A stretch of DNA of 64,000 bases from Prochlorococcus marinus str. MIT 0912 (lineage in GTDB: Bacteria > Cyanobacteriota > Cyanobacteriia > PCC-6307 > Cyanobiaceae), in assembly GCF_027359595.1 (NCBI RefSeq), contig NZ_CP114783.1, positions 868,001 to 932,000 of the forward strand, written 5' to 3'. The position numbers were made by a program, and so were the translations under genes. Positions 3,384 through 61,952 of this stretch are shown piece by piece (the stretch's first letter is position 1; every line of letters begins with the position of its first letter). The notes beneath the pieces are model-generated. The model searched no databases, had not been told where the DNA came from, and worked only from the letters and a program-made list of their open reading frames with translations.

Positions 3384-3403
3384 AAATTCCTATTTAAATT
3401 ATT

Positions 3404-4000: not shown

Positions 4001-4004
4001 GAAA

Positions 4005-4730: not shown

Positions 4731-4739
4731 AAAATTTAA

Positions 4740-5987: not shown

Positions 5988-6013
5988 AGTTTATATTTTA
6001 AAAAGGTTAATAA

Positions 6014-7249: not shown

Positions 7250-7286
7250 TAAAAGTTGTTATCATAGTTACAAGTATAAAAATGAA

Positions 7287-8774: not shown

Positions 8775-8800
8775 ATACTAAGTATATAAACCAAAGATCT

Positions 8801-8822
8801 AAATATTTTCTTTAAAATATTT
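8801..8822. terminator. possible bidirectional terminator between pepA and msrA
   Basis: A perfect 9-bp inverted repeat (AAATATTTT, loop CTTT, AAAATATTT) lies between the convergent pepA and msrA genes. The stem contains only A-T pairs and is therefore weak; position supports a shared termination site. Confidence 0.4.
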
Positions 8823-8840
8823 GGTTAAAGTCATTTATTA

Positions 8841-9449
8841 TTATTTATATTCACCCCAGACTTTTTTTAGCCTATTATCTCTTCCACAACTAGTTCTATA
8901 AAAGTTATATTTAAGTGGATTATTTACTGCAAAATCTTGATGATAGTTCTCTGCTAACCAAAATACTTTTGAATCAGTAATATCAACCTTTAATTGATCT
9001 AGGGGTATATTTAATATGTCAGAGATATTTTCTTGACTCTCTTTTGCATCTCGCTTTTGATCTTGATTAAATGTAAAAATAACAGGCTTATATGAATCAC
9101 CTCTATCACAAAATTGTCCCTTATTATCAAAAGGATCAATATTAACCCAATACTGCTTAAGTAAATCTTTATAGCTAATAATATTAGAATCAAAACTAAC
9201 TTTAACTACTTCTTGATGACCACTATGATTTTCATATGTGGGATTAGTCAGATCTCCTCCTGAGTATCCACTTTCTGCAGAAACAACTCCATCAATCGCC
9301 TCTAGATCATGCTCTAGGCACCAAAAGCACCCTCCTGCAAACATAGCCTCTTCTGATTCAGCAAATGCTTGAAACGGGAAAACTATTAATAATTGTAATA
9401 GCATGCAAATTACTATTAGTCTTCTACAGATTTTAGTCATAAGAATCAT
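8841..9449 (-). CDS. msrA: exported peptide methionine sulfoxide reductase A
   Basis: Reduces the S epimer of methionine sulfoxide in proteins. The catalytic motif GCFWC lies at residues 40-44 with the nucleophilic cysteine at 41. Residues 1-30 form a signal-peptide-like hydrophobic segment ending AFA, so this copy probably acts in the periplasm or lumen. Conserved YHQDF lies near the C-terminus. The ATG overlaps the lpxB stop by four bases (ATGA), tying it to the lipid A operon; a second ATG at 9440 is an alternative start. Confidence 0.93.
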   Translation of the reverse strand: MILMTKICRRLIVICMLLQLLIVFPFQAFAESEEAMFAGGCFWCLEHDLEAIDGVVSAESGYSGGDLTNPTYENHSGHQEVVKVSFDSNIISYKDLLKQYWVNIDPFDNKGQFCDRGDSYKPVIFTFNQDQKRDAKESQENISDILNIPLDQLKVDITDSKVFWLAENYHQDFAVNNPLKYNFYRTSCGRDNRLKKVWGEYK

Positions 9450-10621
9450 TGTGCTAATAAGTCCAGAATATACTTTGATGCTCTTTCTGTAACTCCTGGT
9501 TTTCCTAATTTATCTTTCAAGTTTTTATAACCAATCATGATTTCTTCTTTTTTCGAATTATCTTCAAGAATATTTAATGCTGCATTAAATATTTCTTCAG
9601 CTTTAAAATCCTCTTGTATCAACTCTGGTATTAACATTTTATTTAAAAGAAGATTAACTGGTGAAATATATTTCACATTAAATCGTAATAAATATCTAGC
9701 AAAAAAAGCGGTAACCCTACTTACTTTATATCCAACAATTTGAGGAACTGAGTTCAAAGCTAATTCCATATTTATCGTTCCAGACTTAGCCAAAGCAAGA
9801 TGAGCTGCAGAAAATAAAAATGGCTTTATATCATCAACTTCATTCGACAATATAATTCTTCCAGAAACACCGTATTCATTTAGTGAATTATTTAAAATTC
9901 CATCAAATTCTCTCAAACCAGATGGTATTAGAACAGTAATCGAAGGGTCCTTGTCCTGAAGCATCTTAGCCGCTCGAAGCAATGTGGGTAAAATATATTT
10001 AAGCTCTTGTTTTCTAGAAGCAGGAATAAGAAGAAGAATTTTCTGATCAGAGCTTAATCCTATTCTCTTAAAAGATTCTTCTCTAGTAGGAATATTTCTA
10101 TAGAAATCCAACATTGGATGGCCAACAAATTCTACATTTCCTCCCTTATTTGAATAAAAATTAGCTTCCTCTTGAAAAATAGCTAATATTTTATCTGTAA
10201 AACTAATCAAATCGGTTGTACCAGTATCACCTAATCTCCATGCCCATTCCTGAGGCGCAATATAATAGATTATTGGAATGTTAGGAAACTTTTTTTTTAC
10301 TTTTAATCCTAGCCGAATATTGGGCCCCATATAATCAATTAAAACAACAGCATCAGGCGGGGAAGAACTTAAATAATTGTCAATTTTTGATTGTGCATTT
10401 AAAGTTGGTAGTACGTAAGGAAGCGCTTCTAAAAAACCAATTGCACCTATTGAAGAAGTATTAGATATTAATTTAGCTCCAGCATTTCTCATCCTTTCAC
10501 CACCTAAAGCAATTATTTCTAATTCAATATCTCTTTTTTTTGCATTAGTCTTTAACGCTTTTATTAATAGACTTCCCTGCAAGTCTCCAGAGACTTCACC
10601 AGTGCTGATTAATAATTTCAT
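9446..10621 (-). CDS. lpxB: lipid-A-disaccharide synthase
   Basis: Joins UDP-diacylglucosamine and lipid X into the lipid A disaccharide at the inner leaflet of the cytoplasmic membrane. The 391-residue protein begins with the family N-terminus (LLISTGEVSGDLQGSLL) and has the YIAPQEWAWR and GHPMLDFY motifs of glycosyltransferase family 19. It is three bases downstream of lpxA and overlaps msrA. Confidence 0.97.
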   Translation of the reverse strand: MKLLISTGEVSGDLQGSLLIKALKTNAKKRDIELEIIALGGERMRNAGAKLISNTSSIGAIGFLEALPYVLPTLNAQSKIDNYLSSSPPDAVVLIDYMGPNIRLGLKVKKKFPNIPIIYYIAPQEWAWRLGDTGTTDLISFTDKILAIFQEEANFYSNKGGNVEFVGHPMLDFYRNIPTREESFKRIGLSSDQKILLLIPASRKQELKYILPTLLRAAKMLQDKDPSITVLIPSGLREFDGILNNSLNEYGVSGRIILSNEVDDIKPFLFSAAHLALAKSGTINMELALNSVPQIVGYKVSRVTAFFARYLLRFNVKYISPVNLLLNKMLIPELIQEDFKAEEIFNAALNILEDNSKKEEIMIGYKNLKDKLGKPGVTERASKYILDLLAQ

Positions 10622-10624
10622 TAT

Positions 10625-11476
10625 TTATTTAGTTGACATTAGAGAAGGCATTGGACCTCTTCTACCATTCCCAATGGAAAGCTCTATAAATCGACATAAC
10701 CTTGCGGAGGATGTGAATAAATTCTCTTCTCTTGCAATTTTTAAACCATCAGAAATTACAAATTTAGATTTAAATAATAAGTTCCAAATTCTTTTCAATT
10801 GTAGATATTCTTCTTTATTATCTTTATCTATACTTTGCCTTTTAATGCCAACTTTGTTTAGTCCTCGCATCCTTCCAGGATGACCTTCCGCCAAGCAATA
10901 TGGAGGGACATCCCTATCAACTCTTGTCATACCTCCAACCATTGCTAAATAACCAATATGAACGAATTGATGTATCCCCAAGCAACCTCCAATAACAGCT
11001 CTATCTTCAACAACAACATGACCTGCAATCTGCACGCTATTAGCGATAACCACACTGTTTCCAATATCACAATTATGTCCTAAATGTGAATAAGCCATTA
11101 ACAAATTTTGATTCCCAACTATAGTTTTTTCCCCCTCAAAGGTAGCCCTATTAATAGTTACACATTCTCGAAAAGTATTATTATCTCCAATTAAAACATC
11201 AGTAAAATCTCCTTTATACTTCAAATCTTGGGGTTCTAAACCAATACAGGCTCCTGGAAAAATCTTATTATTTGATCCTATTCTTACTTTCCCATCGATA
11301 ATTACATTTGGTCCTATCCAAGTATTTGGACCAATAATCACATCCGGACCAATAACAGACCCTGAACCTACACATACACCTTTCCCAAGTTCAGCCTTAG
11401 GAGAAACATCTGCAAAGTCATGAATATTAACTTTGTTACCTCCGATTAAGCTTCCAGAAGATTCACGTTCACTCAT
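10625..11476 (-). CDS. lpxA: UDP-N-acetylglucosamine O-acyltransferase
   Basis: First enzyme of lipid A synthesis. The 283-residue protein is a left-handed beta-helix built from hexapeptide repeats (I-G-P-N-x-x, V-I-G and similar) over residues ~15-180, followed by a helical tail. Family motifs HLGHNCDIGN and GHVVVED are present. The frame opens at a TTG at 11491, but that overlaps fabZ. The ATG at 11476, four bases after the fabZ stop, is the better start. Confidence 0.96.
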   Translation of the reverse strand: MSERESSGSLIGGNKVNIHDFADVSPKAELGKGVCVGSGSVIGPDVIIGPNTWIGPNVIIDGKVRIGSNNKIFPGACIGLEPQDLKYKGDFTDVLIGDNNTFRECVTINRATFEGEKTIVGNQNLLMAYSHLGHNCDIGNSVVIANSVQIAGHVVVEDRAVIGGCLGIHQFVHIGYLAMVGGMTRVDRDVPPYCLAEGHPGRMRGLNKVGIKRQSIDKDNKEEYLQLKRIWNLLFKSKFVISDGLKIAREENLFTSSARLCRFIELSIGNGRRGPMPSLMSTK

Positions 11477-11480
11477 TACT

Positions 11481-11939
11481 TCAATCCACAAGAGAGAACA
11501 TCAAATCTCCAGAACAAACCAACTGATCATCAACTTTTGCTTCTCCTCTTACCTTTCCAAATCTCTTCCTTTTGATGCTTATCAATTCACAAGATATTAA
11601 TAATTGATCTCCGGGTACGACTGGACGCCTAAACCTAACTGAATCAATCCCAGCAAAAACAAATAGTCCTTTAGGAAGATCAGGCATTTGAGAAACAATC
11701 AAACCACCCACCTGAGCCATTGCTTCTACTATTAACACTCCAGGCATTAAAGGTCTGTCAGGGAAATGTCCTTGAAATTGAGGCTCATTGAGAGTGACAT
11801 TTTTTATTGCCACAGCTTTCTTGCCAGGCTCATGTTCAATCACTCTGTCAACAAGCGCGAAAGGATACCTATGTGGCAAAAGCCCCATTATTTGCTCGCT
11901 ATTTAAAACAAGAGGCTGGGAAGGAGAAATGTCAGTCAA
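11481..11939 (-). CDS. fabZ: 3-hydroxyacyl-ACP dehydratase
   Basis: Dehydrates 3-hydroxyacyl-ACP in fatty-acid elongation and competes with LpxA for hydroxyacyl-ACP, which explains its place in lipid A operons. The 152-residue hot-dog-fold protein has [14 protein letters not shown] near residues 20-33. The catalytic His58 lies in [12 protein letters not shown] and Glu72 in VEAMAQ. It lies 12 bases after lpxC and four before lpxA. Confidence 0.97.
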
Positions 11940-11951
11940 AATCAGATTTAA

Positions 11952-12809
11952 TTAAGTTAATACCTTTTGAAGAGAAGCTGCAAATTCAGCATGAAGAGAG
12001 TGAGACCCTTTATAAACAAAAATTTGCGCTTTCGGCAATCCAACAAAAGCTAAATCTCCAATCAAGTCAAGCAATTTGTGGCGTACTGGTTCGTTTTCAA
12101 ATCTCAAGGGTGGATTAACCCAAGAATCACCATCACAAACCAACGCATTTTCAAGTGCTCCTCCCTTAATTAGACCAGCTTTCTTTAATTCTTCTAACTG
12201 ATCAAGAAAGCCAAAAGTTCGTGCAGGTGCAATTTCTTTAACAAAATTATTTGGAGTCAGCTCAATAGAAAACATTTGTTGTCCAATTGCCTTATATGGG
12301 AAATCAATCAAACCTATTAATTTCAATTTTTTTGATGGTATTGCAAAAATCAAACTTTCTCCTTTGTTAACAAAAATTGGAGATTTAATTTCTGGCCTTG
12401 GCCTAGGAGATGTATAGGAATTAATCATTCCTACTTTCTCAATTTCCTTTATCCAACCAATAGCAGAACCATCTAGTAAAGGTATCTCACTACCATTTAT
12501 CTCAATATTTACATGAGTTAAACCTGATCCAATTAAAGAGGCCATCAAGTGTTCAACCGTAGATACTTGTTTTCCATTCAGATCAAGTGTTGTACATAAA
12601 GGAGTATTCCTTACTTGCGAAATCTCTATAGGGATAACTTTATTTGGTTCCTCTGAAAAAGAAATATGAAATCCCTCTAATTCTGATGGCTTAATAATGA
12701 CTGAACATTTAAGACCTGTATGCAATCCAATTCCATCTTTTTTAATTTCATTTTTAAGCGTCCAACCTTCTTCGTAATCATTAGGGAATAAAAACACTAG
12801 AATTTCCAA
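11952..12809 (-). CDS. lpxC: UDP-3-O-acyl-N-acetylglucosamine deacetylase
   Basis: Zinc deacetylase performing the committed step of lipid A synthesis. The 285-residue protein shows the zinc-binding TVEHLMASL (His87) and a C-terminal HKLLDLIGDL motif carrying the second His and Asp. The ATG at 12809 overlaps the end of the bamA gene by 13 bases; a GTG at 12797 is an alternative start with no overlap beyond the stop codon. Tight packing implies translational coupling. Confidence 0.96.
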   Translation of the reverse strand: MEILVFLFPNDYEEGWTLKNEIKKDGIGLHTGLKCSVIIKPSELEGFHISFSEEPNKVIPIEISQVRNTPLCTTLDLNGKQVSTVEHLMASLIGSGLTHVNIEINGSEIPLLDGSAIGWIKEIEKVGMINSYTSPRPRPEIKSPIFVNKGESLIFAIPSKKLKLIGLIDFPYKAIGQQMFSIELTPNNFVKEIAPARTFGFLDQLEELKKAGLIKGGALENALVCDGDSWVNPPLRFENEPVRHKLLDLIGDLAFVGLPKAQIFVYKGSHSLHAEFAASLQKVLT

Positions 12810-49948: not shown

Positions 49949-49968
49949 GATGAATCCCTTTCTTTAAA

Positions 49969-49992
49969 TTTAGGAAAGTTCCTAAACTTTTT
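49969..49992 (+). terminator. rho-independent terminator
   Basis: A 7-bp stem TTTAGGA / TCCTAAA with an AAGT loop, followed by CTTTTT. It ends the small gene at 49745-49948. The 290 bases that follow up to the transporter operon contain no convincing gene and presumably its promoter. Confidence 0.7.
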
Positions 49993-50283
49993 CAGACCCC
50001 ATATTTACGCACAAATTATTTGACAGGGATAACGCAACTATTAGATTATGAGAAGTGTAGCTAACACAGATTCATTAACAGGAAATAATCTAATTGATTT
50101 CAGATTATTCATTAATACATAAAGACAAATCTTCTATCTTTAGAAAAAGTTTTAAACTCACAAAAAATACTTAGAAGTTTCAGCGAGCTTTAGTTTTGGG
50201 ATCACAACTTTCAATGAAGAAAAAGTAAAAGATTTTCTTTAATTGCCCTAGGAAAAAGAAAATTCTGGCGAAAATCAAATTCA

Positions 50284-51345
50284 ATGATAAAAAAATTCAT
50301 GCGTCGATTGGTATCAGGAATAGTTGGTCTTGCAGCTCTATTAGCTGGCTGTGCGACAACAAATCAAGACTATAGTTCTAGACTGAACCTAATAAAAAAT
50401 CGCAATGAGTTGATTTGTGGAGTAAGTGGAAAGATTCCTGGATTTAGTTTTATGAAAAGTGATGGTAGCTATCAAGGACTAGATGTCGATATATGTAAAG
50501 CATTTGCTGCTGCAATTATAGGAGATTCAGAAAAGATCCAATATAGACCTCTAACTGCAGCAGAAAGATTTACAGCTATTAAAACAGGTGAAATTGACCT
50601 GTTATCAAGAAATACCACTTTCACTCTCAGTAGAGACTCCTTAGGTGGAAACGGATTAACTTTTGCACCAGTTGTTTTCCATGATGGCCAGGGATTGATG
50701 GTCAAGAAGGAAAGTAAAATTAGTAGTCTTAAAGATCTTGCAAATAAATCTATATGTGTAGGTTCAGGTACCACTACTGAGCAAAATATAAATGATGCCT
50801 TTGAGAGTGCCTCACTACCTTATACACCAATCAAATATCAAGATCTTAATCAAGTAGTTGCTGGATATTTACAGGGTCGTTGTTCAGCCATGACTTCTGA
50901 TCGTTCACAATTAGCAGCAGCCAGATCTGGTTTTAAGAATCCAAAAGAACATATTATTCTTGATGATGTATTAAGCAAGGAGCCACTTGCTCCAGCCTCC
51001 GATGGCCAAGATCAGAAACTAGCTGATGCCATGAGATGGGTTATCTTTTCACTTATATCGGCAGAAGAGCAAGGGATAACAAAGTCAAATATTGATGAAA
51101 AAGTACAAATTGCAAAGAATAATCCTCAATTAAAACCTTTAAGAAGATTTCTAGGTATTGAGGGAGGACTTGGAGAAAAAATTGGTCTTAGCAATGACTT
51201 CGTAGTTAAAGTAATTAGATCAACTGGCAATTATGGAGAGATTTACGAAAGACATTTAGGAATAAATAGCGAGGTACCTATTCCAAGAGGGCAAAATGAG
51301 TTGTATAACAAAGGTGGTGTACATATTTCACCACCATTTAACTAA
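50284..51345 (+). CDS. amino-acid ABC transporter substrate-binding lipoprotein
   Basis: A 353-residue periplasmic binding protein. The N-terminal signal ends in the lipobox LAGC with the lipidated Cys at 23. The solute-binding family 3 fold starts at ELICGVSGKIPGFSF and has DVDICKAFAAAI and RFTAIKTGEIDLL, as in general or polar amino-acid receptors (AapJ, NatF types). It is first of four genes that together make a complete importer. Confidence 0.92.
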   Translation: MIKKFMRRLVSGIVGLAALLAGCATTNQDYSSRLNLIKNRNELICGVSGKIPGFSFMKSDGSYQGLDVDICKAFAAAIIGDSEKIQYRPLTAAERFTAIKTGEIDLLSRNTTFTLSRDSLGGNGLTFAPVVFHDGQGLMVKKESKISSLKDLANKSICVGSGTTTEQNINDAFESASLPYTPIKYQDLNQVVAGYLQGRCSAMTSDRSQLAAARSGFKNPKEHIILDDVLSKEPLAPASDGQDQKLADAMRWVIFSLISAEEQGITKSNIDEKVQIAKNNPQLKPLRRFLGIEGGLGEKIGLSNDFVVKVIRSTGNYGEIYERHLGINSEVPIPRGQNELYNKGGVHISPPFN

Positions 51346-51364
51346 AACATAATTTTTCGCTGGG

Positions 51365-52264
51365 ATGAGAATAAATCAAAAAATATTTTTGCAATTTGGA
51401 ATATGTATTATCTTATTTGGTTTAATTGGGATACTAATTAATAATTTAACAATAAATCTAATAAGAACAGGTCTTGGTTTTAATTTTAGCTGGCTTTCTC
51501 AAGCAGCAAGTTTTGCTTTAGCGGAACACCCCTTACCTTATACCCCCTCAAATAGCTATGCTTGGGCATTAGTTATAGGTTGGCTCAACAGTCTTAAAGT
51601 TATTGTCTCATCATTAATATTGGCTACTTTCTTGGGAACACTAATAGGCTTTGCAAGAACAGGTAAAAACTCATTATTAGGTCTCATTTCGGCTGGATAC
51701 ATCACAATAATTAGACAAACTCCTCTTTTACTTCAACTTATGTTTTGGTATTTTGTTGGGTTCTTAGGTTTAACAAACAACATGGTTATCAAAGTAAATA
51801 ATATATTCAACATTTCAAATCAAGGAATAGAATTTTCAGGATTAACTTTTTCCTCAGAGTTTTTAGCATTATTACTTGGTCTTAGTATATTTACAAGTGC
51901 TTACATAGCAGAGGTAATCCGCGGAGGAATTCTTTCCGTTCCTCGAGGACAATGGGAAGCATTTAGGAGCTTAGGGCTTTCAGAAAGGAAAGGACTTATC
52001 CGTATAATAATTCCACAAGCATTACCGGCGATCATTCCAGGATTAACTAGTCAATATCTTAACCTTGCTAAAAACAGTACCCTAGCAATCGCAGTAGGTT
52101 ACTCAGATATTTACGCAATTAATGATACTATTATAAATCAAACAGGAAGAGCTATTGAGTGTTTTATCATATTACTTGTTAGTTTCTTGCTATTAAATCT
52201 ATTGATAACTAATACCATGGAAATCATAAATATTTTAATTTTAAAATCAAGAAAATATAATTAA
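51365..52264 (+). CDS. amino-acid ABC transporter permease (AapQ/NatG-like)
   Basis: A 299-residue membrane protein with about seven to eight hydrophobic segments. It carries the HAAA-family EAA-type loop SLGLSERKGLIRIIIPQALP and a TPLLLQLMFWY motif typical of polar amino-acid permeases. The large periplasmic insert after the first span is characteristic of AapQ relatives. It starts 19 bases after the binding-protein gene. Confidence 0.92.
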   Translation: MRINQKIFLQFGICIILFGLIGILINNLTINLIRTGLGFNFSWLSQAASFALAEHPLPYTPSNSYAWALVIGWLNSLKVIVSSLILATFLGTLIGFARTGKNSLLGLISAGYITIIRQTPLLLQLMFWYFVGFLGLTNNMVIKVNNIFNISNQGIEFSGLTFSSEFLALLLGLSIFTSAYIAEVIRGGILSVPRGQWEAFRSLGLSERKGLIRIIIPQALPAIIPGLTSQYLNLAKNSTLAIAVGYSDIYAINDTIINQTGRAIECFIILLVSFLLLNLLITNTMEIINILILKSRKYN

Positions 52265-52267
52265 TTC

Positions 52268-53296
52268 ATGTTCAATATAAATTCAATAATAGCTTACTTT
52301 AAGAACATAAGGAAGACTGTATTTTCAAATTTATTGAATACTATTGTTACTTTGCTCATTATTGTATTGATTAGTGTAACTTGTATTAATACTTTTGAAT
52401 GGATCATATTTAAGGCTAATTGGAAAGTCGTAATATCAAATCTTCCGTTATACGCATTTGGAAGTTACCCACCGAATGAACAATGGAGACCTGCTACTTG
52501 GATTATTAGTCTTCTTACTCTCAGTATCTTTACTCTTTGGGGTCCTAATTGGAAATGTCTACGTAAAAATCTATTAATTATATGGGTAGGAACAATACCC
52601 TTAGGTCTATATTTACTTTATGGAGGGATTGGCTTATCACCTATAACGAGTAGACATTGGGGTGGGTTAACTCTAACTATACTTTTAACTGTTTGTAGCT
52701 CATTCTTTTCATTACCTTTTGGAATAGTTTTGGCACTATGTCGACAGAGTTCATTACCAATAATTCAGAAGCTGAGTTCAATTTATATAGATGGTATGAG
52801 AGCAATTCCTCTTATTGCAGTACTTTTCTTTGGTCAATTACTAATACCTTTATTCCTTCCTGTTGGAATACAAATTGATCGTGTTTGGAGAGCTATCTTT
52901 GCGTTTACTCTTTTTGTCTCTGCCTACATAGCGGAAGATATTCGTGGAGGGCTACAGTCCATCCCCAACACTCAAATAGAGGCAGCCAATAGCCTTGGCC
53001 TTAACCAATACCAAATCATTCAATTCGTATTAATTCCTCAAGCTTTACGGATTGCATTACCTGCTCTGACTAATCAATCTATTGGGCTGTTTCAAAATAC
53101 ATCTTTAATGGCTATTTTAGGACTAGTGGAGTTACTAGGTGTCGGCAGAAGTATCCTGGCTAATCCAGAATTTATTGGTCAATATATTGAAGTTTATGTT
53201 TGGCTAGCATGTGTCTATTGGATGGTTTGTACAATCATGGCTGTTCTAGCACGGCATCTTGAACAAAGAATGAACATTAATCAAGCCAATTTCTGA
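52268..53296 (+). CDS. amino-acid ABC transporter permease (AapM/NatH-like)
   Basis: A 342-residue membrane protein, longer than AapQ as usual for AapM relatives. It has several spans before the permease core and the EAA loop SLGLNQYQIIQFVLIPQALR in the C-terminal third. With the preceding permease it should form the heterodimeric channel. It starts three bases after the previous stop. Confidence 0.92.
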   Translation: MFNINSIIAYFKNIRKTVFSNLLNTIVTLLIIVLISVTCINTFEWIIFKANWKVVISNLPLYAFGSYPPNEQWRPATWIISLLTLSIFTLWGPNWKCLRKNLLIIWVGTIPLGLYLLYGGIGLSPITSRHWGGLTLTILLTVCSSFFSLPFGIVLALCRQSSLPIIQKLSSIYIDGMRAIPLIAVLFFGQLLIPLFLPVGIQIDRVWRAIFAFTLFVSAYIAEDIRGGLQSIPNTQIEAANSLGLNQYQIIQFVLIPQALRIALPALTNQSIGLFQNTSLMAILGLVELLGVGRSILANPEFIGQYIEVYVWLACVYWMVCTIMAVLARHLEQRMNINQANF

Positions 53297-53302
53297 TAAT
53301 TC

Positions 53303-54049
53303 ATGGAACCTATTCTTGTTGCGAAGAATCTCACTAAATCGTACATAAAAGGATTACGAGCTCTTGATGATGTTTCTCTTACAGTTAATCAAGGTAAAGT
53401 TCTAGTAGTCATGGGTCCCTCAGGCTCAGGGAAAAGTACTCTCATTCGGACTTTTAATGGTCTTGAGACTTTTGATAAAGGAGAGCTAAATATTTTAGGA
53501 ATAAAAGTTGATTCCACTCATGATGAAAGAAAAATACAAAAAATACGAAGAAGAGTAGGTATGGTATTTCAACAATTTAATTTATTCCCTCATCTCTCAA
53601 TCCTTGAAAATATCACTCTCGCTCCAGTACATGTGCAAAAACGTCATCAAATTGAAGCTGAAGAATATGGCATGTATCTCTTAAGTCAAATGGGAATAGA
53701 TTCTCATGCCAAAAAATATCCAAGTCAACTTAGCGGAGGAGAACAGCAACGAGTAGCTATTGCGAGAGCTCTAGCCTTAAAGCCCGAATTACTTTTATTC
53801 GATGAACCCACTAGTGCTCTAGACCCAGAGCGAATCAACGAAGTACTCGATGCGATGAGAAGACTAGCTGAGCAAGGGATGACAATGATTGTAGTAACTC
53901 ATGAAATTGGCTTTGCTAAAGACGTAAGTGATCAAGTTTTATTTATGGATTCAGGTAAAGTCATAGAAACATCTCCTCCAAATATTTTCTTTTCTAATGC
54001 TAGGCATGAAAGAAGTAGAAAGTTTTTAAATCAACTTGATAAGAATTAG
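53303..54049 (+). CDS. polar amino-acid ABC transporter ATP-binding protein
   Basis: A 248-residue ATPase. Walker A GPSGSGKST at about 38-46, Q-loop FQQFNLFPHL, signature LSGGEQQRVAIARAL, Walker B LLFDEPTSALDPE and switch His in VVTHEIGFA, matching the GlnQ/AapP subfamily. It is the last gene of the four-gene importer. No strong terminator was recognised directly after it. Confidence 0.95.
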   Translation: MEPILVAKNLTKSYIKGLRALDDVSLTVNQGKVLVVMGPSGSGKSTLIRTFNGLETFDKGELNILGIKVDSTHDERKIQKIRRRVGMVFQQFNLFPHLSILENITLAPVHVQKRHQIEAEEYGMYLLSQMGIDSHAKKYPSQLSGGEQQRVAIARALALKPELLLFDEPTSALDPERINEVLDAMRRLAEQGMTMIVVTHEIGFAKDVSDQVLFMDSGKVIETSPPNIFFSNARHERSRKFLNQLDKN

Positions 54050-54295
54050 TAATAGGCAATTCATAATAAAACGAAAAGTAAGTTCTGAATAAAGATTGAA
54101 AACCAAATAACATGAGTTTAGCTAATGAAAAAGATATTGATGTCTAAGTTAGATATTAAAAAATCAAAAGATAATTTATTTGAAATAAACAAGATGAACT
54201 ATTGGCTCATAATGAAAGTTTACCTTGGTTTTTAGCGGAGGTTCTTGAAACGCTCTAAAAAATGTTCACGTTTTTTTGTATAAAAATTTCCTATT

Positions 54296-55159
54296 TCATC
54301 CCTTTTGAATGATTAAACCCAATGAAGTGATTACGTGATTGTTCATATGGGCAAGAAGTGTTCTTCCATAATGAAAATTTCTTGTTTTTGGATCAGGGGT
54401 GTCTACATGTGTATCTGCAGGTGTATTTCCACGTTTAAAATTTAAAACAATTTTATGACCTTTTGCTATTAGCTTTTTAGCTAATTCCTCTATATCTTGC
54501 TTGCAGTAAAAGCTTAAGTCAGGACTATCATGACTAACTTTATCGGATGTCAATGTGAATTCAGTGGTATGAACTGCAATACCTCCTGGCGCTAAAATGT
54601 TCATAGCATTCTCTACAAAACGAATTCCATTATCATGACTACCTATATGTTCCAATGAGCCGCAGGACCAGCAATAATCAAAACCTTTCAAATCAGATGG
54701 AATCGAATTCATATTGACATTTTTAAAACTAACTCTTTTTTTGAAATCGTTTTTATTAATAATTGATTTAAAATATAATTGATCCACTTCAGTTGCTTGC
54801 CAGTTATATTTTTGGGATACCAAATCAGTTACTATTACTTGGCTATCTCTTGACGCAAAATAAGAAGGCATCATTTCAAAACCACATCCAAAGGCTAAAC
54901 CTTTTTTCCCTTTTAAGTCTCCAACGTAAGTTGTAATCGCCTGAAGGATATATACATATTCCCATACTTTTCTATCCAATACGCATCCTTCTGGACTAAA
55001 TCCAGTCTCCTTAAGAAGTTGAATCCACTTTTCCGCTTCTTTCTCATATAGTTGACTCGCTGAAACTAATTGACTATCAGGACTTTCTAACGTTGGCTGT
55101 TTTATTGAGAATAAAGGCTCTTCTCTCCTTGAAAATAAATCTTTATTAACCAATGACAT
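54296..55159 (-). CDS. SAM-dependent methyltransferase-like protein
   Basis: A 287-residue protein. An N-terminal helical region (1-85) precedes a Rossmann core with GLAFGCGFEMMPSYFASRD (motif I), VIVTDLVSQ, and FDYCWSCGSLEHIGSH (motif IV), then APGGIAVHTTEFTL. In family terms it is a class I methyltransferase related to Methyltransf_11; in some organisms such genes belong to glycan or polysaccharide islands. Substrate unknown. Confidence 0.8.
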   Translation of the reverse strand: MSLVNKDLFSRREEPLFSIKQPTLESPDSQLVSASQLYEKEAEKWIQLLKETGFSPEGCVLDRKVWEYVYILQAITTYVGDLKGKKGLAFGCGFEMMPSYFASRDSQVIVTDLVSQKYNWQATEVDQLYFKSIINKNDFKKRVSFKNVNMNSIPSDLKGFDYCWSCGSLEHIGSHDNGIRFVENAMNILAPGGIAVHTTEFTLTSDKVSHDSPDLSFYCKQDIEELAKKLIAKGHKIVLNFKRGNTPADTHVDTPDPKTRNFHYGRTLLAHMNNHVITSLGLIIQKG

Positions 55160-55252
55160 TTGTTTTTATTTATATTATTCTATATTTTTGTTTTTTCCTC
55201 ATTTGCATCAATAAGTAAATATCCTAATCAAGGCGATCTATGGATCATTTCA

Positions 55253-55399
55253 ATGAAAAGCAAAACAGAAATAATAAATGAAATCATGTTTTTCATTCTC
55301 GAGAGAGCCAAGTGCGAAGAAGATACAGACAAGTACCTTAAGCATGTTCTCGACTACTGCAAACAAGATTACAAACAGGCTTTAAAAAAGAAAAAATAG
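55253..55399 (+). CDS. small helical protein, unknown
   Basis: A 48-residue frame from the ATG at 55253 (MKSKTEIINEIMFFILERAK), soluble, amphipathic and ending in lysines. The frame is open back to a TTG at 55160, which would add a hydrophobic segment, but that start abuts the divergent methyltransferase ATG and lacks a ribosome-binding site. Confidence 0.45.
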   Translation: MKSKTEIINEIMFFILERAKCEEDTDKYLKHVLDYCKQDYKQALKKKK

Positions 55400-55441
55400 T
55401 ATAAACATTATTCGACAAATAAAGGTATAAATTTTAGGAAT

Positions 55442-55672
55442 TCACTTTATATCTATAGTCCAACGTCGATTACCCATACGATCTGATTCGGAGTAACAAT
55501 TAGCAATTAAATCTCCATTTCTTTTTCTGACTGAACATTCAATACCATCCTCAGTTCGATAGAAACTGGATGTAGAAGCTGAAGCTTCAGTTGATAAGTT
55601 CGATGTCAAATTTTTTAAAATCAAAAGCCAAATCATTCCTTCATTTGAATCTTCGTTAGTTGTGAAGTGCAT
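55442..55672 (-). CDS. small hypothetical protein
   Basis: A 76-residue frame from the ATG at 55672 that overlaps the end of the upstream small membrane protein gene by 17 bases. It contains a hydrophobic patch (MIWLLILKNL) and a beta-rich C-terminus with two cysteines (GIECSVRKR, LIANCYSES). The frame extends upstream to 55744 within the other gene. Start is uncertain. Confidence 0.45.
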   Translation of the reverse strand: MHFTTNEDSNEGMIWLLILKNLTSNLSTEASASTSSFYRTEDGIECSVRKRNGDLIANCYSESDRMGNRRWTIDIK

Positions 55673-55880
55673 TTTCAGGTGAATCTTTAGTGATTGGAAC
55701 CGTATCTGTCTGTAAGATATCAGTGCTTGGTATGCCTTTAGCAACAGATCCGATCAGAGTCGTATGAGCTTCTGGATCTTTCTTTAACGTTGTGACCCCA
55801 AGATCGTTTTTTGAAATTAATATAAAAATAATTATCCCAACAAATGTCAAAATAATTGCTAGAGCCAATGAATAATCCAT
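55656..55880 (-). CDS. small single-span membrane protein
   Basis: A 74-residue protein with an N-terminal span (LALAIILTFVGIIIFILI) and a polar, Thr/Asp-rich tail of about 50 residues. It overlaps the following small gene by 17 bases, implying coupling. No family recognised. Confidence 0.6.
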   Translation of the reverse strand: MDYSLALAIILTFVGIIIFILISKNDLGVTTLKKDPEAHTTLIGSVAKGIPSTDILQTDTVPITKDSPENALHN

Positions 55881-56106
55881 AACAAATGTTTATTGGTCTT
55901 AGTAAACTAAGATATAAATTAAAATCCATACGAAAATAAGAACTCACTAATATTTCAATTCATTCAAACAACTTAGCTCATTTTACTAATATGAAGTAAT
56001 AAAAATCACAAAGTAATCTTAAGTATAAAATAAACTTCAATACTGTAAAAAAAATCAACTGTTAATATAGGGATTATTGGATAATTAAAGAATTCAAAGT
56101 AACTCA

Positions 56107-56394
56107 ATGTACGAAGATAATTTAACAGCAAGCAATCCTAAAAAAGCCAATCATCATTGGTTTCCATTTCTTAGATATAAGAGAGAATATGAAGCTTCTG
56201 GAAAGGAAGTCAGCGTGAATGATTGGTTAAGAGCAACAGGGCAACTCGATGAAAAAATAGCTCATGAAGAATCAGTTGCATTAGCTGCAAAAATTGCTGC
56301 TGAAAAAGAAGCAGAGGCAATCAAAGAAATCGAAAAAGAAGCTCTAAAGAAAAAGAAGGAAATACAAAGTGAAACCAAGAAAAAAGCAAATTAA
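56107..56394 (+). CDS. small Lys/Glu-rich coiled-coil protein
   Basis: A 95-residue soluble protein. The first 45 residues are aromatic and basic (HHWFPFLRYKREYEASGKEV); the rest is an uninterrupted Ala/Glu/Lys helix, likely a coiled coil. A role as a nucleic-acid or protein tether is possible but not shown. Confidence 0.6.
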   Translation: MYEDNLTASNPKKANHHWFPFLRYKREYEASGKEVSVNDWLRATGQLDEKIAHEESVALAAKIAAEKEAEAIKEIEKEALKKKKEIQSETKKKAN

Positions 56395-56503
56395 AATAAT
56401 TGTAAGAGTGTCATTTGATACACAATAATTCCTACAAGATTTTAAGAAAAAGAAATTCTTTTTTAAAGATATTTAAAAATAAGATGAATTCAATATCAAA
56501 CAA

Positions 56504-56644
56504 ATGTTTTTTGCATTAGCATCTTCTCAGTTAGGTATAAGTACGTTAACAATCAATCTAATTCTAATTACTTCAGTGGTAATTTTATTAGGATTACCCA
56601 CTTTATTCCTTATTAGCTTAGCTCAAGGCAAATCAGCATTTTGA
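56504..56644 (+). CDS. small single-span membrane protein
   Basis: A 46-residue frame (MFFALASSQLGISTLTINLI) with one long hydrophobic helix and a short end QGKSAF. Size and shape resemble low-molecular-weight photosystem subunits, but no known Psb, Psa or Pet sequence matches by eye. Confidence 0.55.
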   Translation: MFFALASSQLGISTLTINLILITSVVILLGLPTLFLISLAQGKSAF

Positions 56645-56660
56645 AACGCTAGTAAACCAT

Positions 56661-56927
56661 TCAAGAAGGATGAAATTTCTTATATAACTGATTCTCTGAC
56701 AATTGAATTCCAAAACATGCAATATTATCAAAGTCACCATTTCTATGCATAATTGTCATATTGTCCTTAATTTCTTGACTATCAAACATCAACCCAAAAT
56801 CACTGCAATATTTAAATAGCCTATTCATTGCAGCCTCATGGTTAGTAAGAAATTCCTCACAAAGTTCTGATAAATTTTCCTCATTCAAATTATTTATCAT
56901 TGTTTTAAATTCTTTGAAATTGCTCAT
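56661..56927 (-). CDS. small hypothetical protein
   Basis: An 88-residue, acidic, mostly helical soluble protein (FKEFKTMINNLNEENLSELC), with a mixed C-terminal part (MTIMHRNGDFDNIACFGIQL). Two to three cysteines, not in a recognisable motif. Convergent with the 46-residue membrane protein gene. Confidence 0.6.
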   Translation of the reverse strand: MSNFKEFKTMINNLNEENLSELCEEFLTNHEAAMNRLFKYCSDFGLMFDSQEIKDNMTIMHRNGDFDNIACFGIQLSENQLYKKFHPS

Positions 56928-57243
56928 TGGATTTTATTGAGTTCGAAGTAATTTATTCATAACTTTTTTTTTTAAATTTAGTCATAACAAATATTGCTTT
57001 TAAAAGTGATTAAATATTCATCAGAGTGTAACCACATAAAAAACCATAGGCTCCAACTTAACTCTCGTTACTGCGTTGAATTAGTAGTTAATCTATAACA
57101 CTTTCATTAATACTTAACAAACTAAATTCTTACTTTTCTAAAAAGTATAAAACAAGACTAGGTTATGTATTTATTGATAGAATGTATTTATTTGAAAAGC
57201 AACTAAAATAGTATATAAATCTAATCACAACTTATTACTGAAT
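56928..57243. other. 316-base AT-rich gap, nothing recognised
   Basis: No convincing ORF, RNA or strong hairpin seen; poly-T tracts near 56964-56973. It probably holds promoters of the divergent small genes. Confidence 0.5.
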
Positions 57244-57372
57244 ATGAATAAAGATCTAAGTCTCATAACAATTGAGAATGATATTAGCCAAGCAAATTAC
57301 CCAACACTCTTCAAGGGAATATGGACCGGTATTTTAATCTCCTTGATAGCGCATCACTTTATCACTCATTAA
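57244..57372 (+). CDS. small hypothetical membrane-associated protein
   Basis: A 42-residue frame (MNKDLSLITIENDISQANY) with a polar first half and a hydrophobic second half (GIWTGILISLIAHHF). ATG start; no clear Shine-Dalgarno. The C-terminal histidine-rich end is unusual. Confidence 0.4.
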   Translation: MNKDLSLITIENDISQANYPTLFKGIWTGILISLIAHHFITH

Positions 57373-57699
57373 AATCTTAAATTCTATTAATCGATAGATA
57401 TCAGGATTTAATAATTTCTTTCCCTTCATAGCCTGTTGAGAAATCTTTCATTATTAATGTCATTACGTCTACCTCAAATTAATTAGAGTCTTTTGACGTC
57501 TATCTAACTACAAAGAATCGAATAAAGAAATGAGGCTGAGATTATCAATCCATCTAAACATCTTAATTTCGCTAAGATCCCATGGCAAAAAAGTAACCAT
57601 GCAACTGGTTAATGAAACATGTACCCTGAGTTATTGCAAGGGTTATTAAAAATCAAATACCCCCCGTCCAAGCATCGTCCACACTTTTAGATTATTTTT
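57373..57699. other. gap with one doubtful 39-residue frame
   Basis: The stretch is mostly non-coding. A frame at 57530-57649 on the plus strand (start MRLRLSIHLNILISLRSHGK, 39 residues, end TCTLSYCKGY) is possible but has no supporting context, so it is not called as a gene. Confidence 0.35.
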
Positions 57700-58341
57700 T
57701 CAGGTTATTACGAGACCTACAGCTCTTGAAAGTGTTAATCCAAAAATATCTAAAACCACAAAACCATTCATTATTCTCAGTGCACGTGCAACGTCTGTTT
57801 CACATACACCATGTTCAGTTGTATCACTTACAACGACAGAAGCTGTTTTCGCAAAATAACTAAATGGAGTTGGCTTTTTATCAAATGTAATCGCAGCTTT
57901 ACCCTTCCCTAATCTAGATGAATGATTCAATCTCCAATACCACCAAGAGAATCCAATTAATACAATGGGTACAAATAATACTAATTCAACCAATAGTAAG
58001 ACAGGATCTTTAAGGGGAGATACCAAGAGCAAGTTCATTGAAGCAAGTTCCAAAAGCCACGCAAAGCTCAAAATAATTGCATAAACGTCACTCAAAAGTC
58101 TTGAATCTTTGCCTAAAAGACCCCAAATTATTAAACAAAGAATAAAGATTAAAAAAATCGCCCCTAATGGATGTTCGTAATTAGTAAAAGAATCTAAAAC
58201 CAAATGAATATTTTCTAATAAATTCTTCACTGAAGAATCCTCAACATCATCAAGATTTAAATTTCTATCAAAAGAAACAGAAAAGAAGAAAGCTATTGAA
58301 AGAATATATATTTCAAGCGGTTTAAAAATTCTTTTAATCAT
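57700..58341 (-). CDS. multi-span membrane protein, unknown
   Basis: A 213-residue protein with an N-terminal signal/anchor segment and about three central spans (IFLIFILCLIIWGLLG, VYAIILSFAWLLELASMNLLL, LLLVELVLFVPIVLIGF). A soluble loop carries a single Cys (TTEHGVCETDVARAL), and a C-terminal hydrophobic segment ends at VGLVIT. No family recognised. Confidence 0.7.
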   Translation of the reverse strand: MIKRIFKPLEIYILSIAFFFSVSFDRNLNLDDVEDSSVKNLLENIHLVLDSFTNYEHPLGAIFLIFILCLIIWGLLGKDSRLLSDVYAIILSFAWLLELASMNLLLVSPLKDPVLLLVELVLFVPIVLIGFSWWYWRLNHSSRLGKGKAAITFDKKPTPFSYFAKTASVVVSDTTEHGVCETDVARALRIMNGFVVLDIFGLTLSRAVGLVIT

Positions 58342-58755
58342 ATAATCTAAAAAATTAGATAGTAATTACACAATAGATACAAAATCAAAACTTTCATGAT
58401 TTATTTTCTAAATACAAATTTCGATGGATAATAAACCTAGAATTGAACGTTTTTAATATTCTGTTTACACCCCGTACTTTCTCCCAGATCCATGACAGAA
58501 AAAGATATCTCGTATCGGCTAATGCAAAAAGATCTTTATGAAAAGTTTATTGAAATCAATCAGGATATGTTCTTATGATTTTGCTTACACATGATAATGA
58601 ATTGAGAACAATTAGGTAGAAAAAGTATCAACCAATACATTGGAAGGGAGAGACAAGAATAAAAGACTTCAACAATTAAATCTACTTACACCAAAAAAAT
58701 ATCTATCCCCACACTAATAAGTTCATGCTCTTTCAGACAAAAGTCTATAGTTCTT
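58342..58755. other. 414-base gap with one doubtful 28-residue frame
   Basis: Mostly AT-rich non-coding sequence. A plus-strand frame at 58492-58578 (MTEKDISYRLMQKDLYEKFI..., 28 residues) is protein-like in composition but unsupported. No RNA or terminator recognised. Confidence 0.35.
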
Positions 58756-59241
58756 TCAATCAAAAAACAATGATTCTTCTTGAAGTGATTCATCACTTTT
58801 TTGACTTCTAATAGATGAATTGTTTGATATTTTCTCTGAATCCCGTCTCTTTTCAAGCTTATCTTGATCGTCAGTTTTGGTATCCAAAATAGTAGATTTT
58901 ACTATATTAGAACTAGGTTGTTTAATAGCAGATTGAAAAGCCACATCTCCTTTCATCATACTTTGACATCTTTTTAATGAAATAGCATCTAACGGTTTAA
59001 CTTTATTTTTAGATCCAAAAACCATCTTATGGCATTTTGATATTCTCGAAAATTCTTTAGTATTATTAATTCCTTTCTCTGAAAAAGAAATCATTTTATT
59101 ATCAAGATACTTTTTAAATTTAGGTGTTCTAAACTCCGACATTGATTTTAAATTACCACCTCTACAACTACCACCTGCATGAGAGTCAGATCCCATTGAG
59201 AAAAAAGCTAGCAAGATTATTAATTTTAAGAAGATTTTCAT
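58756..59241 (-). CDS. exported basic protein, unknown
   Basis: A 161-residue protein with a clear signal peptide (residues 1-22, ending SHA). The mature part starts GGSCRGGN and has cysteines at about 26, 70 and 91. The last 50 residues are a charged, Ser/Asp/Lys-rich, probably disordered tail. Predicted periplasmic or extracellular. Followed upstream by another exported protein gene on the same strand. Confidence 0.68.
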   Translation of the reverse strand: MKIFLKLIILLAFFSMGSDSHAGGSCRGGNLKSMSEFRTPKFKKYLDNKMISFSEKGINNTKEFSRISKCHKMVFGSKNKVKPLDAISLKRCQSMMKGDVAFQSAIKQPSSNIVKSTILDTKTDDQDKLEKRRDSEKISNNSSIRSQKSDESLQEESLFFD

Positions 59242-59342
59242 AGATAAAAGTATATTTTTTTATCCTACATTCAAAAGGCATACTATTAATTCATCCCAAA
59301 GCTAAAGTTTATTTTTTTATATATTAAATGTATTGAATACAA

Positions 59343-59669
59343 TCAACAGTCAGGCCCAGATGAAGCACCAATAGCTCCTCCTGCTGCTGCACCAATTGCC
59401 GCACCTGAATTCCCTCCAAAAATCTTTTTGCCTAAAATCCCTCCAAAGGCAGCTCCAGCAATGGCATTACCTGTCTTCTTATTTATACAATCCTGACGCT
59501 TAGCTAAATCTCTATTACGTTGGTCAACGGTCTTAAAAAAAGCTGATCCGGTTGGTCCTTTTGCTTGTGCCGTTGTCCATACAGGTGGGGAGTCTGCCGC
59601 AATCACGGGCAGGTATAAAACACTACTTAAGAAAAATAGTTTAAAAAATATCCTTGCTCTAATTTTCAT
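59343..59669 (-). CDS. exported glycine-zipper protein
   Basis: A 108-residue protein from the ATG at 59669 (a TTG at 59675 is also in frame). Signal peptide to about residue 24 (VIAA), a polar middle (FFKTVDQRNRDLAKRQDC), then a glycine-zipper region (AIAGAAFGGILG, AAIGAAAGGAIG) and a terminal Cys. Glycine zippers of this type insert into or line outer membranes, as in SlyB/Rcs-type lipoproteins. Envelope location is likely. Confidence 0.75.
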   Translation of the reverse strand: MKIRARIFFKLFFLSSVLYLPVIAADSPPVWTTAQAKGPTGSAFFKTVDQRNRDLAKRQDCINKKTGNAIAGAAFGGILGKKIFGGNSGAAIGAAAGGAIGASSGPDC

Positions 59670-59801
59670 TATCAATATTTAATGTATTTTTTGATAGTAA
59701 CATTTTATCTTACAAAGATTGAAGATGTTAAAAATGATTAATAGAAAATCTAGCTCGTATAGTAGGTTTTTATAAAATTTCTAATCTAACTATAATTAAA
59801 A

Positions 59802-60680
59802 ATGACAAATTTCTCAAATTTTCCTAGAAATATAATTCCATGGGTTGCTTTAGGAGGTAGTGGTCTAGCGATTTTCCTCTCAATTCCAAAAGCAGCTGAA
59901 AACTTCAAACCAATTGACAATAAAAGAATAGAAAATATAACAGATTTTGAAATTTTATCAGATAAAAAAACAGGAGATATTTATGGTTGGATTGAAGGAA
60001 AAGAAGGAGAAATGAGATTTGTAAAAATGGACGAGAACTCAGAGAATAAAGTTCGTAGCGAAAGAGAAAAATCAAAGGAAAAAGCTAGAATTGAAGAAGC
60101 AAAGCGTCAAGCAGCTTTAGAGAAAGAAAGATCTTTAGCTGAAGGTTTATTAACTCCTAGTATCAACAAAGAAGATATACGATCCGAGCAGATTTTCGAG
60201 AAAAATACTACATTTAAAGACTACAAAGTTAATGCAAAAATTAAATATAGACTTCGTGAGAGAAGTATGCTTTATAGAATTGCAATTTCATTGAAAGACA
60301 TCTCAGATAATGTAACTAATCCTATGTGCGAATCTATTGAGTCAATAGATTCAAATCTAAGTGCAAAACTTAGAGGAGAGAGAATGCTCAGCTTAATCAA
60401 GGGGAAAGATAATCAGATACGTTTTAGATTTGTTGATGCAGATGATTTTTGGCTTAAAGATACTGTTATTCCTTTAGACAGCAAGAAAGCTAATAATTTA
60501 AAAACAACTGTTATTGATGCATATCATAAAGATGAGTGTGGGAATTTGAACAAATTAGTTTTCCATGGTCAAATGAGCGATTATTCTTTACCCGATTATA
60601 GTTGGGTTGAAGATGGCAAATTATTATTTAGTGGAGTAAAAGTTATCGAACCTGAAGAAGAAAATAATGAAGATAAATAA
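59802..60680 (+). CDS. membrane-anchored hypothetical protein
   Basis: A 292-residue protein with an N-terminal anchor (IIPWVALGGSGLAIFLSI), a charged coiled-coil region about residues 75-115 (EREKSKEKARIEEAKRQAAL) and a beta-rich C-terminal domain with three cysteines (MCESIES, DECGNL). The C-terminal end is acidic. Divergent from the glycine-zipper gene across 132 bases. No family recognised. Confidence 0.7.
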   Translation: MTNFSNFPRNIIPWVALGGSGLAIFLSIPKAAENFKPIDNKRIENITDFEILSDKKTGDIYGWIEGKEGEMRFVKMDENSENKVRSEREKSKEKARIEEAKRQAALEKERSLAEGLLTPSINKEDIRSEQIFEKNTTFKDYKVNAKIKYRLRERSMLYRIAISLKDISDNVTNPMCESIESIDSNLSAKLRGERMLSLIKGKDNQIRFRFVDADDFWLKDTVIPLDSKKANNLKTTVIDAYHKDECGNLNKLVFHGQMSDYSLPDYSWVEDGKLLFSGVKVIEPEEENNEDK

Positions 60681-60723
60681 ACTACTCTAAAGAAATATAT
60701 AAAATAAATTAACAAAATCGCAT

Positions 60724-60750
60724 AAAAAAATGCCCCGCAAAAACAGGGCA
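60724..60750 (-). terminator. rho-independent terminator (minus strand)
   Basis: On the minus strand TGCCC pairs with GGGCA around a loop of about ten bases, followed by seven Ts. It lies 17 bases after the stop of the small minus-strand gene at 60767-60940 and supports that gene as real. Confidence 0.78.
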
Positions 60751-60766
60751 AATCATCTTCAGATTG

Positions 60767-60940
60767 TTATGGGTAATAAATTATTGTATACAAATTTTGA
60801 TTAGTTTTCTTCTTGCTTTTGATTCTTCTTTCTTTTTTGTCATTTAAACCAAAAGAAGATTTAAAACCACCGGGATTGACGGCTTTCTCAGCACCAACTG
60901 CGCCAATGATAACAGTTGCAAACAAGGCACCTACGACCAT
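60767..60940 (-). CDS. small membrane-anchored basic protein
   Basis: A 57-residue protein from the ATG at 60940 (MVVGALFATVIIGAVGAEKA): an N-terminal hydrophobic segment or short signal, then a highly basic tail (DKKERRIKSKKKTNQ). It has its own terminator downstream. Its start codon abuts the Calx-beta fragment on the opposite strand. Confidence 0.6.
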   Translation of the reverse strand: MVVGALFATVIIGAVGAEKAVNPGGFKSSFGLNDKKERRIKSKKKTNQNLYTIIYYP

Positions 60941-60943
60941 TAT

Positions 60944-61129
60944 GGCAGGACATCCGGCTCCCTAACTATCTCTGCAGGTGCTACCTCAGGAACCTTCAAT
61001 GTTCCTATCCTTGCTGACTCAACAGATGAGAACACAGAAACTGCAACCATTACTCTCACCAATGCAACTAACTCCACCTTCTCTGACGATACGGCTACTT
61101 TAACGATCACTGATGACGAGGAAGCATAA
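60944..61129 (+). pseudogene. Calx-beta repeat fragment, remnant of a large surface protein gene
   Basis: One plus-strand frame without a start codon reads as a nearly complete Calx-beta motif: SGSLTISAGATSGTFNVPIL, then DENTETATITLTNATN and a final ATLTITDDEEA before TAA. Calx-beta repeats occur in tens of copies in giant secreted or cell-surface proteins of marine cyanobacteria. Here only the last repeat and the stop survive. The stretch is visibly GC-richer than its neighbours. The minus-strand frame over it (60940-61152) is a shadow. Confidence 0.75.
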
Positions 61130-61484
61130 AGTACATTAGCAATCGAGTTCATCTATAGAAGCAATCAAGACCAGACTTTTATATTCCTCGTCACCTCGTC
61201 CAAAGTGTGGCAATATTCATGAAGGCAAATTTCTTAGTAGCGATAGGAATGAAAACGAAAGACAGATTCCTCCTCGCCCCTGCAACGAAGCCGCTAGAGG
61301 ACTAAATAATATTCACTTATTTTCAAAAATAATTGAGTCGATCTTACAAATCACAGAAAAAAAATCTGATTTGTTAGTTATTAGTAATAAAAACCTGATT
61401 AGATAGAGTAAAGAAAAGAGATGGAAGAATGAGGTTTCATTCCAACTCCATTCCAACCATCAAGAATCACTAAGATTACAGACT
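61130..61484. other. 355-base gap after the Calx-beta fragment
   Basis: The first ~175 bases stay GC-richer than the rest, like the fragment before them, and may be part of the same inserted or decayed segment. A direct repeat ATTCCAACTCC / ATTCCAACC occurs near 61438-61459. No gene recognised. Confidence 0.45.
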
Positions 61485-61952
61485 ATGACTGAGATTAACT
61501 ACTGGCTAATGAAAAGTGAGCCAGATGCTTACAGCATTAAAGATTTACAAAAGGAAGAAGAAACTCTCTGGGATGGAATTCGAAATTATCAAGCTAGAAA
61601 CTTTATGAGGTCAATGAAAATTGGCGATCAAGCTTTTTTTTATCATTCAAATACAAAGCCCCCTGGAATAGTTGGTTTAATGGAAATTATTGAGACAAAC
61701 TTAATCGACCCATTTCAGTTTGATGAAAATTCAAAGTACTTTGACAAAAAATCAACACGTAATAAACCTCGTTGGGATTGTGTGAAAACTAAATATATCT
61801 GTGAATTTAAAAATATGATTACTTTAAAGGAGCTATCTGAAACTTATACGTCTGATGAACTAACGCTAGTTCGTAAAGGTAACAGGCTTTCAATTATGCC
61901 AATTAATAAAAATATCGCTTTAGATCTTCTAAAAAAGCTCAAGAAAAATTAA
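61485..61952 (+). CDS. EVE-domain protein
   Basis: A 155-residue PUA-fold protein with the EVE signature NYWLMKSEPDAYSIKDL, then LWDGIRNYQARNFMRSMKIGD and FYHSNTKPPGIVGLMEI. EVE domains bind modified bases in DNA or RNA; the human relative is THYN1. Normal single-domain length. It converges on the DUF2811 gene with one base between. Confidence 0.94.
   Translation: MTEINYWLMKSEPDAYSIKDLQKEEETLWDGIRNYQARNFMRSMKIGDQAFFYHSNTKPPGIVGLMEIIETNLIDPFQFDENSKYFDKKSTRNKPRWDCVKTKYICEFKNMITLKELSETYTSDELTLVRKGNRLSIMPINKNIALDLLKKLKKN

Follow-up and report, generated by a model that had tools for sequence, protein, structure and literature searches.

Prochlorococcus is among Earth's most abundant photosynthetic organisms, and its variable genes are described in the literature as being carried by elements at tRNA genes. 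Tycheposons are cargo transposons of Prochlorococcus, of 4–200 kb, that are located at tRNA genes and employ a tyrosine recombinase (PMC10872708), and the picocyanobacterial integrase family cluster158946 is found upstream of tRNA-Phe or tRNA-Cys (PMC10187409). Protein-coding genes may serve as sites elsewhere: in Streptococcus pyogenes, mutL receives the SpyCI islands at its 5' end (PMC3430984, PMC4689407), and hotspots beside EVE-fusion genes have been reported in Streptococcus (PMC7641849).

The locus considered here lies in a window of 64,000 nucleotides—the whole stretch of DNA analysed, corresponding to bases 868001-932000 of a complete genome of 1,898,947 bp—in which a piece of a Calx-beta repeat stands upstream of a conserved EVE-domain gene. 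With the tycheposons this locus and its relatives share a tyrosine recombinase, cargo genes, and site-specific islands in Prochlorococcus; whereas the tycheposons use tRNA genes, however, a protein-coding gene provides the site here, through its 5' end, and none of the 23 loci scanned, the recombinase-bearing ones included, has a tRNA, so that membership in the tycheposons on the basis of tRNA-gene integration was rejected. Furthermore, the modules at EVE measure roughly 1–10 kb, and many of them contain no recombinase. A tRNA or small RNA as the target within the window was likewise discarded, because no Rfam family matched between 58 and 64 kb and the window's sole tRNA is at 32.5 kb. The likeness to cluster158946 consists in a tyrosine integrase, in islands of Prochlorococcus and Synechococcus, and in variable cargo; but it is EVE 5' copies that the recombinase described below adjoins, the two being set apart here by the described site. 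The SpyCI islands offer a parallel in being site-specific and in occupying the 5' end of a host gene that has a DNA-related role and whose promoter is affected; those islands, though, are phage-like and silence mutL, whereas the EVE elements would bring a new upstream region and a new start and would stack in tandem. The Streptococcus hotspots, for their part, resemble the present locus in that variable arrays of mobile genes adjoin a conserved EVE gene, but transposases were suggested in that instance, in contrast to the defined core within EVE and the tyrosine recombinase found here. A literature search, outside of which the original tycheposon paper fell, yielded no cyanobacterial case of a site at the EVE 5' end, and an earlier description is possible.

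The Calx-beta fragment, its island, and its junctions

The frame 60950-61129 encodes the peptide TSGSLTISAGATSGTFNVPILADSTDENTETATITLTNATNSTFSDDTATLTITDDEEA, followed by a TAA at 61127-61129. When searched against Pfam, this peptide matched the Calx-beta family over profile positions 61–119 of 119 (about 59 residues), and a search of the whole genome with PF03160 recovered this place as the only one found (26.7 bits, profile positions 54–118). With reference to the curated cut-off of 27 bits for Calx-beta, the fragment attained that value when taken with its frame neighbours, the shorter peptide alone reaching 23.5 bits. Among the ORFs listed, none of at least 30 aa beginning with ATG, GTG, or TTG provided the fragment with an in-frame start. 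The preliminary description of a startless Calx-beta unit with an in-frame stop, against the start codon of a small minus-strand gene, is therefore sustained as to the homology, the missing start, the stop, and the neighbour—the start codon of the 57-aa ORF is 10 bp away—but not as to a whole unit, since of the complete domain (about 119 positions) only the C-terminal half is present. By itself, the fragment is ordinary gene debris.

The fragment belongs to an island, at 54050-61484, whose gene content varies among strains and which is bordered by conserved genes: the EVE gene was kept in every relative fetched, and the ABC ATPase gene that ends at 54049 in most of them (Table 1). Within the island, copies of the EVE 5' end (hereafter att-like copies) delimit modules, with the copy at 58439 bounding the fragment's module on the left, and the copy at 57516 likewise bounding the next one. 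The former module, with cores at 58516 and 61503, is about 3.0 kb long and has the fragment at its right inner edge. Neither a recombinase nor a remnant of one was found in the island modules of the window, the best recombinase match in this genome being 29% identical and located elsewhere. As to the cargo, the Gly-zipper gene and the 292-aa gene (59343-60680) form a divergent pair that occurs together in genomes G287 and G057 as well, and that pair is possibly mobile as a unit; elsewhere, the homologs of the 292-aa gene had no att-like copy of the EVE type within a distance of 1.5 kb.

Table 1. Features of the island and of the EVE gene, in window positions.
Feature	Position	Strand	Remarks
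att-like copy, degenerate, type A arms	57516..57625 (profile match to 57647)	+	61.1 bits, E 3e-18
ORF of a 213-aa membrane protein, cargo in the next module	57700..58341	-	0 tblastn matches in 20 relative loci; no Pfam family
att-like copy, degenerate, AGATCCATGACAGAAAAAGATATCTCGTATCGGCTAATG	58439..58530 (profile match to 58549)	+	32.9 bits, E 1e-9; matches the type C copy of L161
161-aa ORF (cargo) whose start resembles a signal peptide	58756..59241	-	0 tblastn matches in 20 relative loci; no Pfam family
Gly-zipper small protein	59343..59675	-	weak PF13441; divergent from the 292-aa gene in G287 and G057
292-aa cargo protein	59802..60680	+	in 7/251 family genomes; patchy; no confident Pfam family
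57-aa ORF	60767..60940	-	with upstream DNA (60793-60971), forms a family with two further copies in the genome
Calx-beta fragment	60950..61129	+	C-terminal half of one Calx-beta repeat; Pfam PF03160, E 6e-5
GC-richer stretch between the fragment and the EVE upstream region	61130..61286		GC 0.414
att-like site, current copy	61401..61522 (profile match to 61549)	+	104.6 bits, E 1e-31; profile excluding the window
EVE-domain gene	61485..61952	+	PF01878, E 5e-54; in 17/17 near-complete genus genomes

At the left junction the Calx-beta homology of the DNA begins at 60950, and the homology with the family of the 57-aa ORF, whose other copies (81% identity) are at 559.6 and 574.0 kb of the same genome, extends to about 60971. 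The overlap is a short microhomology, GCA..ACATC, common to the upstream DNA of the small-gene family and to the Calx-beta DNA; this feature is consistent with end joining, and the left junction may represent an independent event of that kind. On the right, the stretch 61130-61286 had no homologs in 251 family genomes or in the loci fetched, and with no match of any sort in that interval the link between the fragment and the element end is tentative. One might suppose, then, that the fragment and the GC-rich stretch were captured by chance during the double-strand-break repair of foreign DNA, with no relation to an att module, in agreement with both the microhomology and the interval lacking a homolog. 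The position of the fragment, however—exactly inside the strain-variable segment of the island and with att-like copies on both sides—argues against such a coincidence, which we regard as unlikely, albeit deserving of consideration. Our preferred reading, which we deem probable, is that the fragment constitutes a foreign and dead piece of DNA within a recombinase-less module of about 3.0 kb inserted at the start of the conserved EVE gene.

Origin of the Calx-beta fragment

The closest relatives of the fragment are in the Prochlorococcus SAGs AG-676-L21, AG-679-K21, and AG-418-F16 (loci L095, L096, and L097), whose repeats are, respectively, 82, 80, and 76% identical to it in amino acids, the next-best being from Pelagibacterales, with identities of 69 and 66%. 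Those nearest relatives are giant, open-ended ORFs of FG-GAP/VCBS plus Calx-beta composition that exceed 3,300 aa even though partial; that of L095 stays open over 3,393 aa and runs past the end of the contig. In L095, blocks that we would name FG-GAP/VCBS-like from their sequence (GDGDLDIVSAS) alternate with Calx-beta blocks, and the giant ORF is downstream of putative ABC-transporter-like and HlyD-like ORFs, named in the same manner. The proposal made at the outset that a giant multi-repeat secreted protein was the source finds support in these relatives and in the transporter-like genes that they adjoin. In contrast to those proteins, the fragment is half a repeat, has no start, is unaccompanied by secretion genes—no ORF resembling a type I secretion component was among those listed beside it—and has a GC3 of 0.56 instead of 0.19. 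Considering also its setting in the EVE module, we deem it probable that the fragment, now dead, descends from a foreign giant surface protein of the sort exported by type I secretion.

The composition of the fragment bears upon where that protein came from. Its GC of 0.461, compared with a window mean of 0.336, is attained by 0.6% of the 178-bp windows, and its GC3 of 0.559 is beyond the whole range of the resident genes (mean 0.226, s.d. 0.057, maximum 0.407), for which the reference was 1,156 windows of 59 codons from 43 resident ORFs of the window; the GC3 values of the relatives, 0.19 in L095 and 0.41 in the homolog of genome G053, are also exceeded. The GC-richer DNA noted earlier is thus real at the fragment, and its reported continuation for about 175 bases past the stop holds for 61130-61286, with a weaker excess that is equalled by 9% of the windows, but ceases at about 61287, where the EVE upstream region begins. 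Neither the fragment nor its following 157 bases occurred in other genomes of the genus, and none of 41 genus genomes had the fragment's DNA at the place upstream of EVE. Because the GC3 is far beyond the resident range and the DNA is missing at that place from the relatives in the genus, an origin by transfer or recombination, which was among the options first entertained, is favoured; and because the GC3 surpasses that of the residents, of L095, and of the G053 homolog, the fragment is foreign, from a donor of higher GC, and is unlikely to be what decay left of a resident gene. A phage source was also considered and set aside, with no matches in 50,697 phage records, either as DNA or as protein, and a single weak viral contig.

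The other option first entertained, that a resident giant Calx-beta gene upstream of EVE was deleted except for its tail, would accommodate the C-terminal nature of the fragment with its stop and the occurrence of giant Calx-beta genes in single-cell genomes of Prochlorococcus. That option nevertheless conflicts with the non-native GC3, with the genus genomes, all devoid of the DNA at this place, and with the lack of secretion-type ORFs listed alongside, and we judge it improbable.

Repeated EVE 5' ends and a linked tyrosine recombinase

The repeated part of the EVE 5' end comprises about 100 bp of upstream DNA and the first 12 or so codons (YWLMKSEP), with similarity dropping abruptly past the core. 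The current copy consists of type B arm repeats, CATTCCAACTC/CATTCCAACCA, plus the first EVE codons with the core TACTGGCTAATGAAAAGTGAGCC, and is 88–97% identical to those in G014, G022, G002, and G031 and, in other genera, in G162, G175, G080, and G056. The copies in the window were scored by a profile built without the window, the controls being 21 reversed or shuffled sequences (maximum 17.9 bits). Direct repeats of the target that include EVE coding codons and paired arm repeats therefore flank the insert in the window, with copies at 57.5, 58.4, and 61.4 kb. Extra EVE 5' copies were present upstream, within the island, in 13/21 relative loci, from 1 to 4 in each and all in the orientation of EVE, a count to be taken as descriptive since the counting profile was trained on copies from those same loci; with a single blastn setting, extra copies appeared in 10/21 loci versus 0/9 control gene starts. 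The upstream arms are of several unrelated types—CCATCCACACACCATCCACACA, CATTCCAACTCCATTCCAACCA (that of the window), GTTATCCAAACTTTATCCAAACC, and TTCATTCGAACTTCATTCGAAC, each paired about one helical turn apart—and are joined to an identical core with the same sharp edge. The cargo between copies depends on the strain and includes a cyanase, a photolyase, an FAD-binding flavoprotein, a trypsin-like protease, and DUF1800. Between genera the arm region of the window (type B) is 88–91% identical, whereas the EVE genes there are only 67–72% identical, which difference suggests that element ends moved between genera.

In L156 (reverse complement, 2544-12138) five consecutive copies enclose differing cargo, among which are genes of the DUF1800 and DUF1501-like kinds and an ORF resembling an autotransporter. 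Beyond the left limit of the island, a four-gene ABC-transporter-like operon (50284-54049) is preceded at 49968-50079 by a weak att-like match of 16.7 bits, which does not top the control maximum. At the same place in relatives the att-like copies are stronger (3e-13 in L157, 2e-27 in L151), and in L151 the operon's ATPase gene is missing from the region fetched; the operon is perhaps a cassette that became fixed long ago. A free element was also sought in viral contigs by an exact scan with the 18-base core, whose 21 matches were all in unrelated contexts and are attributable to chance.

In genome G033 a protein of 529 aa that resembles tyrosine recombinases (PF00589, E 1e-6; PHROG integrase, E 1e-17) lies between att-like copies and starts about 100 bp past the upstream one, and an identical layout is found for the homologs of other genera in L171, L175-L179, and L184. 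EVE is downstream of the recombinase in G033 and within 20 kb of it in G054, G170, G324, and G080, and in G002 a recombinase remnant is immediately upstream of EVE. The G033 element (L161, 2914-12359), with the tyrosine recombinase and a DNA photolyase between two att-like copies, is the most complete one seen. No homologs of the recombinase were found in phages. Of the catalytic R-H-R-H-Y set, the recombinases retain the C-terminal Tyr and the second Arg, but the first Arg of the TGxRxxE box is Ser (TGMSPEE), the box II His is replaced by Ser, and the His positions vary (S, N); both departures from the canonical set, at the first Arg and in box II, were noted in L175-L179 and L170. With those two residues missing, recombinase activity is not assured, and the family would be one of unusual tyrosine recombinases, if active.

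These non-canonical boxes, and the fact that co-oriented direct repeats can arise by unequal recombination, might lead one to regard the EVE 5' repeats as ordinary tandem or promoter duplications generated by homologous recombination, and not as recombinase att sites. Such duplications would hardly explain, however, why unrelated arm types share one core and one sharp edge, why the recombinase homologs of other genera carry an att-like copy at a fixed distance, and why 0/9 control genes were duplicated, so that we find this explanation very improbable. A role for the fragment as a short expressed gene or as a functional regulatory piece can be practically dismissed: although its frame is open across 93 codons, that frame includes the upstream antisense DNA, and the fragment has no in-frame start, amounts to half a domain, and was found conserved alone in none of the relatives.

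Proposed mechanism and biological meaning

Returning to the att-like interpretation of the repeats, we infer from the arrangement of these sequences an integrative-element hotspot at the EVE 5' end, linked to the recombinase; that the Calx-beta fragment arrived with such an element we would propose with less assurance than the integration. The element would carry an att copy made up of the arm repeats, the promoter region, and the first 12 or so EVE codons, and the tyrosine recombinase would cross that copy with the resident EVE 5' end at the core TACTGGCTAATGAA, integration and excision themselves being presumed steps. With each insertion, the start of EVE and the region upstream of it would be renewed, and the old ones would be shifted leftwards; since the old 5' end would be displaced to the left each time, the modules would pile up in tandem with their att copies co-oriented. 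Through loss of the recombinase and small end-joining events, those modules would then decay to cargo-only modules and to scraps such as the Calx-beta one. We tentatively propose, as a possibility somewhat short of an even expectation, that the EVE 5' end is the attachment site of an undescribed family of Prochlorococcus elements, stacked in tandem like cassettes, each renewing the upstream region and the first codons of EVE.

What deserves following in these results is the hotspot, att-like and linked to a recombinase, within a protein-coding gene, and the multiple arm types together with the identity of the ends across genera make that hotspot directly testable. The Calx-beta fragment, in turn, shows that DNA from an organism of higher GC reaches the EVE site. 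A protein-gene hotspot equipped with a dedicated recombinase would offer small cargo, such as cyanase or photolyase, a second way to move; and, if the proposal is true, the turnover of cargo would also rewire EVE, the gene of a protein that reads modified bases.
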